Made by a program: the position numbers and the translations under genes
IMG/VR virus record: IMGVR_UViG_3300022912_000043
Coordinates: 1-24,928 of that record
DNA: 24,928 nt
From: a virus
Direction: 5' to 3' (one strand)
In this document: positions 9,643-24,277 of the stretch, one piece after another
Layout: every line of letters starts with the position of its first letter
Position numbering within the stretch: the stretch's first letter is position 1
The notes under the pieces: generated by a model
The model's database searches: none
Seen by the model: the letters and a program-made list of their open reading frames with translations, nothing else
What the model was told of the DNA's origin: nothing

Positions 9643-9978
9643 TCAGTGAAATCGTTTTATTTTATACCTTTTAAAATCTTCGAAACTATTTATTTCATTT
9701 CGCATTGACAATATCCTGAATTTTTCACAAAAATCAAACATTTCATCAAATGTAAACTTTCTTTTTAATTCCGCTCCGTGTTTCACCACAAAATTAATTG
9801 ATTCTTTGCCAAATAAAAAAGGCGCTTGCTTAACTGTTTGCCAAACATTAAAATCACAATAATCCTGAAGTACTGAATATTTTGAAACTTCGATATCTGT
9901 TTTTAATTTCAAATATGATAACTTATCAGCATCAATTTCACATTGCGCCGCCCAATTATTTAAATCTTCAAAACTCAT
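9643..9978 (-). CDS. Unknown protein following the helicase (111 aa)
   Basis: A 111-residue protein, probably helical, with FTFDEMFDFCEKFRILSMRN and SFEDFKRYKIKRFH near its end. It overlaps the helicase gene by 11 nt and is the last gene of the early/replication group before the late promoter. I do not recognise a family. Coupling to the helicase suggests a replication-associated role, which is inference only. Confidence 0.65.
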   Translation of the reverse strand: MSFEDLNNWAAQCEIDADKLSYLKLKTDIEVSKYSVLQDYCDFNVWQTVKQAPFLFGKESINFVVKHGAELKRKFTFDEMFDFCEKFRILSMRNEINSFEDFKRYKIKRFH

Positions 9979-10924
9979 TGTTTGTTTTTACTTGAAAATC
10001 AAATGACTTAAAATTAAAATCAGTATCAGTCATCAATAAACGCAACCTGTTAAATTCGTAAACAATATCTAAAGTGTTCCCGGTTCCACGTTTGTTAACC
10101 AAGCGCATAGCACCAAAATCTTTATTGAATTCATCTTCATTTTCAAAAAGGCTGGCTGTTATATAAAAATCACAATTATCGATTATCTTCTCTGAACTCC
10201 TGACTTTGTCCGATAAGTCCCTATCTACTTTAGATCCGCCTTTTGAAACATGGCACACCAGGAATATCAATATTTTCCATTTATTAGCCAATTCCTTTAA
10301 TTCCTTTGAATGTTTTGAATATAGTTCCGTTTCACTTCCTTTACCTCCCATACCTGCCAAACCGTCAACAATCAAAATATCTATACGTTTATTTTGCAGC
10401 CTAAATTTGTTTAATAATTTTTCATATTGTTCGGTTTGCAAAGATGTATTTTCGGTAATAAAAAAACGGTTTTTAAACATCGGGGCAACCGTTGTACTAA
10501 AAAATTTCTTTGCATCTATTTTTTTTGTTTTATTATTGTGATATTCTAATTCTGCATGAGGGTTATACCCGTCCGCTGGCTCAACCGACATGTCTATTAA
10601 CCTATTTATTATTTGCGTTGCCCCCATTTCCATAGTTGAATAAATGCAACTTCCAAGCCCCTGTGTGATATTTTCGTAAGCAATATTTAAAGCCAATAAA
10701 CTTTTTTTAGTACCCCCGTAACCAATTATCGGGACCAATTTCCCCCTCAATTTGCCTTTAAATTCTTTGTTCCATGGTTCAAATTTCAGACTCAATTTAT
10801 TGTTTTCAGGTAAAATAGAGTCGTACCATTCACCGCCCCACTCAGCAACTTCCTTGCACACAAGTTCATCACTTACAAGTGGCAATTTCTCGAATTCATC
10901 TATATTTTTCGGAAATGGGGTCAT
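9968..10924 (-). CDS. Replicative helicase / RecA-fold ATPase, RepA-like (318 aa)
   Basis: The protein has the core of the RepA/DnaB-type RecA fold: a P-loop variant PIIGYGGTKKS (68-75, with Lys-Ser at the end), a second element CIYSTMEMG, Walker B in ILIVDGLAGMGG (Asp187) and the switch His in FLVCHVSKGG (His225). It has about 60 residues before the P-loop and no separate DnaG-binding domain, so it is closer to phage/plasmid RepA-type ring helicases than to full DnaB. It should unwind phage DNA at the fork. It overlaps the small upstream gene by ATGA and follows the replication-initiation-like gene. Confidence 0.85.
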   Translation of the reverse strand: MTPFPKNIDEFEKLPLVSDELVCKEVAEWGGEWYDSILPENNKLSLKFEPWNKEFKGKLRGKLVPIIGYGGTKKSLLALNIAYENITQGLGSCIYSTMEMGATQIINRLIDMSVEPADGYNPHAELEYHNNKTKKIDAKKFFSTTVAPMFKNRFFITENTSLQTEQYEKLLNKFRLQNKRIDILIVDGLAGMGGKGSETELYSKHSKELKELANKWKILIFLVCHVSKGGSKVDRDLSDKVRSSEKIIDNCDFYITASLFENEDEFNKDFGAMRLVNKRGTGNTLDIVYEFNRLRLLMTDTDFNFKSFDFQVKTNNEF

Positions 10925-11186: not shown

Positions 11187-11855
11187 TTATCTTTTTAATT
11201 GTGGTGTTGTATTTTGTTTTGATTTTAATATTTCATCATTCCATCTTTGCCCGTTCAAAAATGTTGATGGGAGTGGTCTGTATTGTTTATCTGGATATTG
11301 TTTTATCCATTCAGGAACTATTCTAATAATTGTTTCACGTTCTTCATCTTTTAACGCCCCCCATTTATTTAAGCATTTTTGTTTATCTCCTGCCTTTCGA
11401 TCATATAAATTCCAAAAATTTTCAAATCCTTCTTTATCTTTAACTTTGTCCTTATCCTTGTCTTTATCTTTAGCCCCTTGTAAGGAGCTTATAAGGAGCT
11501 TATTGTTTTTTATTAATTTATATTTATTTAAAATTTTAATAACTGAATTATGTGCCCTATTTTCAATATTTAATTCTCCATATTGGAATTCAATAAATGA
11601 AGGAATAAACCATTTCGAACCTGAATTAATTTCTACAATTCTTTTTTCATCTGTATTGAAAAATCTCATTGCATCTTCTTTATTAATTGGCAAATCTATT
11701 CCAATATAAATTTGAGCTATGTCAAAATCTACAATCCATATTCCCGCATGGTCACAATCGTGATATAAATAATCCCAAAGCACCTTATAAGCCCCTTGCA
11801 AGCCCCTTATAAATGGTTTTTTGTATTTGTTTGTATCTGTAAATCGTTTAGCCAT
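11187..11855 (-). CDS. Phage replication initiation-like protein (222 aa)
   Basis: The N-terminal 100 residues (FTDTNKYKKPFIRGLQGAYK, CDHAGIWIVDFDIAQIYIG) resemble the winged-helix N-domain of phage replication/DnaD-like proteins. A low-complexity linker KDKDKDKVKDKEG (about 130-142) follows, encoded by a hexamer-like DNA repeat at 11440-11480. The C-terminal part FENFWNLYDRKAGDKQKC and PLPSTFLNGQRWNDEI matches the ending of many phage replication proteins that bind or load the helicase. It is the first gene after a promoter and an unusually structured leader, and it precedes the helicase, fitting a DNA-binding initiator or loader. Confidence 0.75.
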   Translation of the reverse strand: MAKRFTDTNKYKKPFIRGLQGAYKVLWDYLYHDCDHAGIWIVDFDIAQIYIGIDLPINKEDAMRFFNTDEKRIVEINSGSKWFIPSFIEFQYGELNIENRAHNSVIKILNKYKLIKNNKLLISSLQGAKDKDKDKDKVKDKEGFENFWNLYDRKAGDKQKCLNKWGALKDEERETIIRIVPEWIKQYPDKQYRPLPSTFLNGQRWNDEILKSKQNTTPQLKR

Positions 11856-11870
11856 AACTCACACTGTTAT

Positions 11871-11980
11871 AGGACAAAGTCCTGTAAGGGTGCGATTACC
11901 AAATGAGATTTGATACCTTACAGGAACAATGTCTATTTTATAAATACTATTTTATCTGAATTTCTCATTTGATAATCGCA
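11871..11980 (-). promoter_or_regulatory. Structured 5' leader with interleaved stems (candidate RNA switch)
   Basis: Two long complementary pairs occur in alternating order. P1: 11963-11980 pairs with 11891-11908 over 18 positions, 17 Watson-Crick and one G-U if the minus strand is transcribed. P2: 11916-11924 pairs with 11881-11889 over nine perfect bases, extended by GACA/TGTC farther out. Order along the RNA is P1a, P2a, P1b, P2b, the topology of a pseudoknot or of mutually exclusive folds. A third hairpin, AGGAC-TTT-GTCCT (11871-11883), uses the P2b bases and ends 15 nt before the initiator ATG. A promoter match lies just upstream, so the block would be the mRNA leader. Confidence 0.7.
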
Positions 11981-11983
11981 TTA

Positions 11984-12014
11984 CAAATATACAAAGAACA
12001 ATCGACTTAATCAA
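11984..12014 (-). promoter_or_regulatory. Candidate promoter for the replication operon
   Basis: On the minus strand TATATTTG (11984-11991) matches the -7 consensus TAnnTTTG. At 19 nt upstream is TTGA (12011-12014), part of aTTG and a partial -33 match. The predicted start point falls at the edge of the interleaved-stem leader, which would make those stems the first bases of the mRNA. Confidence 0.5.
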
Positions 12015-23209: not shown

Positions 23210-24277
23210 TTAATCAGCCTTATTCTGTTCATCCGTAAAAGAAAAAAGCCCTCGCTCTTCAACTTTTTCAAAGTTGTTGGGGTTTGGTTCAGCTCCTTTA
23301 ATTCGGTTCACTGCTATGTTAAAATAGTTCTCGTCTTTTTCAATACCAATAAAATTACGGTTGGTATTTTTACAGGCTACTCCAGTGCTTCCACTACCCA
23401 TAGTTAAATCAACCACTAAATTATTTTCATTACTAAAGGTTTTAATCAAATCTTCAAGCAATAATACAGGTTTTTGAGTCGGGTGGTAATTGTCTCTATC
23501 TCTTTTAAATTCAAAAACATTGTCTTTATATTTTTTACCTTCCCATAGGTTAAAGGTACTTGGGTATTGCTCGTTCATTTGTTTTAATAAATCCGTTCTA
23601 TATTCGGTATCTATTTTCTTTAATTCTGCAAACTCTTTAAATTCATTTACTTTATCAATATTAAATACATTAATCAATTTATCATAAACTTTATTTTGTA
23701 ACAAAGAAAATTGAGTTGATTTTTCAGCACCTAAAAAATGTATTTTTCCAGTTTGTATTTTATTCTGTATTTCACTTTGTTTTAATCCAATATAATCAAC
23801 TATGTTTTTCGCATAACTTCTTAATGGGTGCATTCCTTTAAAGTCGTGCTTTTGGTGGTTTTTACTAAAAACTAAAATATCTTCAGTCTTATAAAGTAAT
23901 GCTTTTTTACTTCTCATAAAACTACCTAAAGTATCTTTTAGCCAAATAGCTCTGTAATTAAATGGTAGACTAGGTATAGCATTATTCATTAATTTATTGG
24001 TAAATGGTTCTTGTGCAAATAAAATCATTTTACCATTTTTACGTAGTATTCTATTTGCTATTTCCATTATTTTATCAGTAGGTATAATGTTATCCCATTC
24101 GTGCTTTTCTTTCCCTTGGTGGTAAATTCCGCTATCACTTTGTCCTTCCATCGTTCCGTAAGGTAAATCTGTCAATATTAAATCAACACTACCATCTTTT
24201 ATATTCTCGTTTTCAATTAAGGTATCTCCTTTTATTAAATCAAAAAAAAGCCCCCCTATTTTTTCTTTTACTATCAT
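23210..24277 (-). CDS. DNA methyltransferase, beta class (355 aa)
   Basis: Motif IV is LILTDLPYGTMEG (DLPY at 37-40, Leu replacing the first Pro of DPPY); motif I is VVDLTMGSGSTGVACK (about 290-297), preceded by YHPTQKPVLLLEDL. The order is that of beta-class adenine-N6 or cytosine-N4 enzymes. Between the motifs lies about 250 residues, including FKGMHPLRSYAKNIVDYIGL and a helical insert that may be the recognition domain. It lacks an adjacent nuclease gene and so may be an orphan protecting the phage, or a partner lost by cassette exchange. It is cargo of the unit 23183-24380. Confidence 0.88.
   Translation of the reverse strand: MIVKEKIGGLFFDLIKGDTLIENENIKDGSVDLILTDLPYGTMEGQSDSGIYHQGKEKHEWDNIIPTDKIMEIANRILRKNGKMILFAQEPFTNKLMNNAIPSLPFNYRAIWLKDTLGSFMRSKKALLYKTEDILVFSKNHQKHDFKGMHPLRSYAKNIVDYIGLKQSEIQNKIQTGKIHFLGAEKSTQFSLLQNKVYDKLINVFNIDKVNEFKEFAELKKIDTEYRTDLLKQMNEQYPSTFNLWEGKKYKDNVFEFKRDRDNYHPTQKPVLLLEDLIKTFSNENNLVVDLTMGSGSTGVACKNTNRNFIGIEKDENYFNIAVNRIKGAEPNPNNFEKVEERGLFSFTDEQNKAD

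Follow-up and report, generated by a model that had tools for sequence, protein, structure and literature searches.

Structured leaders that act in cis are already known from phage mRNAs, and pseudoknots among them are, to our knowledge, rare. In T4, a pseudoknot in the gene 32 leader serves the translational autoregulation of a replication protein; this H-type pseudoknot is small, lies about 67 nt before the start codon and is accompanied by the A+U-rich target of a single protein (PMC3014915). The leader described here and the class of phage leaders to which we assign it resemble this system in that a pseudoknot precedes the ribosome-binding site within the 5′ leader of an mRNA for phage replication, but the leader studied here has an 18-bp stem (P1) at its predicted start site and the first gene behind the element varies across the class. 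Phage P4, with its CI RNA and the seqA–seqC early leader, provides an example of premature termination ahead of replication genes (PMC4825925). Here, the likeness consists in a replication-operon leader with complementary blocks and possible alternative pairing, and in the U-runs found in about half of our class. Immunity of the P4 type involves a processed antisense RNA directed at seqA/seqC and a prophage state. A scan of the P4 genome found the interleaved layout in the crr repeats only and not in the P4 leader, and P4-type immunity was rejected as a general explanation because of this absence and because integrases are missing in 12 of 13 phage contigs, although these may be fragments.

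HDV-type ribozymes fold with the strand order P1a-P2a-(P3)-P1b-P2b, a 7-bp P1 at the cleavage site, and P1.1 and P4 placed between P1b and P2b. Both this order and the position of P1 at the 5′ end are common to our class and to HDV-like ribozymes including the phage theta ribozymes (PMC10879173). In the class, however, P1 measures 7–22 bp rather than 7, P4 is mostly missing and the promoter abuts P1a, which leaves nothing to cleave; for the leader in focus, an HDV-like ribozyme was rejected on account of its 18-bp P1, the 1-nt link between P1b and P2b, the lack of P4 and the position of the promoter. Attenuators of the intrinsic-terminator type resemble about half of the class, which carries a U-run after P2b just before the first gene, but the stems of the class have no strand in common and the copy studied here has no U-run.

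The DNA analysed is the 24,928-base virus contig IMGVR_UViG_3300022912_000043, referred to as a whole as the window. It has no match in Rfam 15, nor do seven loci with elements at the gathering threshold, and a search of nine loci at E ≤ 1 gave only three weak and unrelated matches. In a literature search that covered mainly open-access journal papers, no description of such a leader was found. The group, which is defined by its layout, is thus apparently undescribed.

The leader of the replication initiation gene

On the minus strand of the window, a block of interleaved stems precedes a gene for a replication initiation protein, which is followed by a gene for a DnaB-like helicase (table 1). 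The record also encodes a terminase, methyltransferases and recombination genes, and our search of it gave no integrase or resolvase match. Bacteroidetes promoters follow the pattern TTTG-N19..21-TAnnTTTG, and a box of the TAnnTTTG type, TATATTTG, ends 3 nt before P1a, i.e. in the same placement as before other elements of the class. Since the promoter (TTG-N20-TATATTTG) ends at this point, the transcript should begin at P1a, and from the sequence, transcription of the leader is predicted to start with this strand or no more than about 3 nt away from it. This match to the Bacteroidetes consensus supports the proposal of an initial annotation that a promoter lies directly upstream and that the block is an mRNA 5′ leader.

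Table 1. Features of the leader and of the genes behind it (positions in the window).
Feature	Positions	Strand	Basis
Bacteroidetes-type promoter: TTG (12014-12012), N20, TATATTTG (11991-11984)	11984..12014	-	sequence
P1a, predicted transcript 5′ end; 11980-11963 pairs with 11908-11891	11963..11980	-	sequence, stem pairing
L1, A-rich linker, 37 nt, contains GACA (11933-11930)	11926..11962	-	element anatomy, composition
Outer P2 extension GACA/TGTC	11933-11930 with 11876-11873	-	
P2a TCCTGTAAGG; 11925-11916 pairs with 11889-11880	11916..11925	-	sequence, interleaved-pair scan
L2 TATCAAA, 7 nt; opens alternative inner hairpin TATCAAAT-CTC-ATTTGGTA	11909..11915	-	folding
P1b	11891..11908	-	sequence, stem pairing
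P2b CCTTACAGGA	11880..11889	-	sequence, interleaved-pair scan
Hairpin AGGAC-TTT-GTCCT, bases partly common to P2b	11871..11883	-	sequence, energies
Replication initiation protein gene, 222 aa, start codon 11855-11853	11187..11855	-	PHROG 270, E 7e-16
DnaB-like helicase gene, next after initiator gene	9968-10924		DnaB-like match, E 1.7e-21

Read in the direction of transcription, the strands follow each other as P1a-P2a-P1b-P2b plus a small hairpin, all between the promoter and the initiator ATG. P1 comprises 18 positions, i.e. 17 Watson–Crick pairs and one G-U, which would be A-C in the opposite sense. P2 consists of 10 bp, a single nucleotide links P1b and P2b, and not one nucleotide is shared between P1 and P2. 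The coordinates confirm much of what the initial annotation had described: a P1 of 18 positions with a G-U on the minus strand only, the order of the strands, the one-nt link, a third hairpin overlapping P2b and the four-bp extension of P2; P2 itself, however, had been taken for nine bp. The complete element is 101 nt long, with 24 nt between the end of P2b and the initiator ATG and 15 nt between the hairpin and this codon. In the tail after P2b (CTTTGTCCTA), the U-run that directly follows the stem of an intrinsic terminator or attenuator is missing.

The minimum free energy of the leader (−33.5 kcal/mol, z −4.3) was matched by none of 200 shuffles, and its interleaved P1/P2 pair was equalled in none of 2000 dinucleotide shuffles. 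With a score of 65.8, this pair also ranks first among the interleaved pairs found anywhere in the 24.9-kb record, compared with a peak of 54.8 in 20 whole-record shuffles.

A second strongly structured stretch (z −3.9) is located at 24494-24275 (minus strand), upstream of a methyltransferase gene (23210-24277). It contains a P1 (TGAACGGAATAGT/GCTATTCTGTTCA) interleaved with CAGTTGCGCC/GGCGCAATTG and then a long hairpin; its P1a has no promoter box, and its interleaved score lies inside the shuffled range.

Recurrence of the layout in other phages

With the initiator as query, 80 loci (numbered with an L below) were retrieved, and more were added with L029, L096 and an ERF-like neighbour as queries. 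Most relatives of the initiator come without a leader because their gene lies inside an operon. In those cases where the initiator is the first gene of its transcription unit, and at the front of the same early operon, the interleaved arrangement of the window leader recurs, made up of unrelated bases, for instance in L096 (ATGTTGGAATACA/TGTATTCCAACAT with GTGAGCCAGA/TCTGGCTTGC, then six T) and in L029 (P1 of about 20 bp, P2 of 14 bp, four T). Further examples of the interleaved layout are L206, L027, L022 and L060. A BLAST search with seven elements found no match among 50,697 phage records, and it is by architecture, not by sequence homology, that the window leader is a member of the class.

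A scan over both strands of 149 low-GC phage loci (2.05 Mb) gave 24 interleaved pairs with a score of at least 54, which take in the window itself and a few duplicate phages, versus 3 in shuffled sequence. With the same score and a promoter box 2–10 nt before P1a, there were 4 of the Bacteroidetes type and 10 of the sigma-70 type, with some overlap, and 0 in the shuffles; these thresholds and the list of curated elements were set after inspection of the data, and the scoring favoured G-U over A-C. Whole contigs contain about one interleaved element per phage contig. Eleven leaders of the initiator family or its neighbours gave p-values of 0.0025 to 0.052 when tested singly, and the Fisher combined p was 8e-10 with the two strongest of the 11 left out; single-leader p-values should not be over-read, since that of L041 (0.025) stems only from an ordinary terminator. 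Other low-GC phage loci, retrieved solely through a fortuitous DNA match, showed promoter-anchored elements only in the pattern-targeted homologues, and Tenacibaculum phage JQ and Pelagibacter phage HTVC106P showed no element of comparable strength. A clear promoter at P1a is missing in L241 and L244, and the weak members L021, L008, L031 and L060 depend on P1 stems of 6–10 bp. Two very strong interleaved inverted-repeat structures were seen in L340 (8123-8233 and 9434-9563, scores 79 and 94), which are 1.3 kb apart and have no promoter at P1a.

The 18 curated elements are mostly promoter-anchored and 82–118 nt long, with P1 of about 7–22 bp and P2 of 8–17 bp. L1 (11–37 nt) is rich in A and poor in G (49% A and 7% G, versus 38% and 19% in the context), and most elements carry a P3 hairpin in L2, i.e. 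between P2a and P1b. The link between P1b and P2b spans 0–29 nt, usually under 16, and is reduced to 0–1 nt in the window, L029, L206, L056 and L244. In 14 of the 18 elements, the first ATG follows 4–43 nt past P2b; in about half of the class, a U-run stands directly after P2b. The window leader agrees with the class in its promoter box TATATTTG 3 nt before P1a (range 2–10), its interleaved order, its length of 101 nt (about 82–118) and its end shortly before the first ATG; unlike most members, it has no P3, no U-run, a long L1 and the second shortest L2 (7 nt).

In L058, L258 and L056, the first gene has a ribosome-binding region to which P1b is also complementary (TCCTCCTA/TAGGAGGA; ATTGCATC/GATGCAAT), at a level reached by 5–7 of 200 shuffles. 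Sequestration of the ribosome-binding site by P1b was rejected as a general rule, as it is seen in only 3 of 18 elements.

In L315-L324, L226, L230 and L074, promoter and element are nearly identical and the gene directly after them differs, a pattern to be expected if the leader were swapped or retained as one block. Such near-identical elements in front of different first genes argue against control by the first gene. Self-regulation by the initiator, by analogy with T4 gene 32, where the encoded replication protein binds the leader pseudoknot, is possible but finds no support in this variable first gene.

A DNA-pattern search for a divergent homologue of the window leader found only L087 (IMGVR_UViG_3300025659_000028). 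Throughout the alignment, this second viral contig and the window are identical, i.e. the same phage was assembled twice, and the window lineage therefore yields no covariation. Another homologous set (L074, L316, L226, L230, L066 and L335) could be aligned without gaps over 93 columns; its members retain promoter and element but have different genes next to them. In this set, 97.1% of the cells in P1, P2 and P3 are paired, versus 32–44% in slid controls, and in nine pairs, of which three belong to P1, two to P2 and four to P3, both partners have changed. The covariation score was 0.384, versus 0.186 for shuffles and a maximum of 0.131 with slid partners, with the six sequences forming about three groups and thus representing a modest number of independent events. 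A P2 pair that changes from G-C to A-T between L058 and L258 is likewise compensated. Compensatory changes, which the initial annotation had named as a check on its structure, are thus present in the architectural set of L074 and L066, whereas the window's own relative L087 is identical to it.

Inside the curated stems, G-U (G-T) pairs outnumber A-C pairs by 26 to 4, a count that is supportive only, since the scoring is biased towards G-U and some of the elements are homologues of each other; orientation was counted within these stems, as a test with symmetric scoring was too noisy and ran into stem ends. The strand indicated by the G-U excess agrees with the directions of promoter and genes. 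Taken with promoter placement, recurrence and compensatory changes, this count upholds the initial view of a structured mRNA leader with interleaved stems that acts at the RNA level. We see about an even chance that these leaders make up a new class of phage RNA, i.e. a 5′-terminal pseudoknot of about 100 nt whose layout, but not its sequence, is conserved. It would stretch from the transcription start to the ribosome-binding site of a replication operon, be used both with Bacteroidetes- and with sigma-70-type promoters, and work either in pseudoknot-gated termination or in 5′ stabilisation and translational regulation.

Folding of the leader and competing explanations

An important question is whether P1 and P2 form together or exclude each other. 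P1 alone contributes −22.5 kcal/mol and P2 with the inner hairpin −18.1 kcal/mol, and P1 is complete at nucleotide 90, ahead of the synthesis of P2b. If P1a is blocked, the most stable predicted structure is one with P2 and the inner hairpin (−28.1 kcal/mol). In the predicted P1 fold, CUUACA of P2b pairs with UGUGAG just before the initiator ATG, and this modelled fold could mask the start region of the gene. By an ideal A-form estimate, which is steric only, the 7-nt linker, with a reach of about 50 Å, would have to span about 56 Å for full P1 and full P2 to coexist; opening one inner P1 pair makes coexistence feasible, and in five other members of the class it is feasible with none or one pair opened. 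By this estimate, the strain between the stems that had been noted initially would hold for the full stems, which are just beyond reach, but would be relieved once one inner pair opens. The further suggestion that the stems are mutually exclusive finds no support, since P1 and P2 use different nucleotides and the loops of most members are long enough for both.

Such a two-state switch, in which P1 blocks P2 until capture of P1a by a protein or a trans-acting RNA allows P2 to form and changes the output, a logic similar to that of an attenuator or of P4 immunity, is nevertheless the most serious alternative, though we rate it as unlikely. It would fit the higher stability of P1 and its formation before P2b is transcribed, the shift to P2 and the inner hairpin when P1a is blocked, the gap of 0–1 nt between P1b and P2b in the window and four other loci, the U-run following P2b in about half of the class, and the complementarity of P1b to the ribosome-binding site in the three loci named above. 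This complementarity is, however, missing in most members, the stems have no nucleotides in common, unlike those of attenuators, and the two can coexist once about one inner P1 pair has opened, or freely in most members tested. Moreover, tyrosine integrases are absent in 12 of 13 phage contigs checked and resolvase-type recombinases in all 13, which, although these contigs may be fragments, makes a general role in prophage immunity unlikely.

Since the stems have no bases in common, are each maintained in the homologous set and can both be formed, we favour a folded pseudoknot, which we consider about twice as probable as an exclusive switch. Our preferred reading, held with a slight lean in its favour, is that the block in the window is a transcribed 5′-UTR leader with pseudoknot topology, which belongs to a class defined by layout, recurring in front of replication or early operons of uncultured phages, and tunes the replication operon in cis. 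Transcription would begin at P1a, with the leader filling the UTR up to near the start codon of the initiator gene. P1 would nucleate first, and P2 would close later, probably after fraying of one or two inner P1 pairs in the window phage, and the folded leader would then set the output of the replication operon. In members with a U-run, P2 would probably act as a terminator near the first gene, with P1 helping or hindering its closure. In the window phage, which has no U-run and where P2b would compete with the UGUGAG before the ATG, control of translation or mRNA stability seems likelier for these two reasons.

It appears improbable that the repeats instead function as DNA, either as sites within a replication origin or as operators to which the initiator binds. 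The stem arms are inverted repeats, P2b (ACCCTTACAGG) resembles one iteron-like unit, and about half of the initiator genes among the relatives hold an iteron-like array (CCCCTTACAAG/CTTGTAAGGGG), but this array lies in the coding region and outside the leader. In addition, the bases of P1 and P2 differ entirely between phages while pairing order, promoter placement and length are retained, the compensatory changes preserve pairing rather than a site, and the G-U excess points to the transcript strand. Origin iterons in the leader were rejected, as the iteron-like array sits inside the initiator gene. Arrays like CCCCTTACAAG were observed in 21 of 45 relatives, mostly about 330–390 nt into the gene (SPLQGA codons); in the window, the iteron-like repeats AAGGGGCTT / AAGCCCCTT are found at 11479-11500 and 11783-11808, within the initiator coding region. 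By analogy with lambda O, this array within the gene is a candidate origin.

A further alternative is that the AT-rich leader contains inverted repeats merely by chance and that its relatives were chosen selectively. This would accord with the post hoc curation, the short P1 stems of weak members and the interleaved pairs in other low-GC loci as well, but is even less plausible, and for the strong members largely refuted, in view of the shuffles of the leader, the record-wide maximum score, the promoter-anchored excess over shuffled sequence and compensation in three helices of one set.

Possible implications for phage replication control

If the preferred reading of a folded, cis-acting leader is true, many lytic-looking phages would gate the entry into replication via a leader RNA that sequence searches have missed because only its layout is conserved. 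It would also provide a concrete rule by which such leaders can be searched for, i.e. a promoter box, followed by interleaved stems and a start codon.
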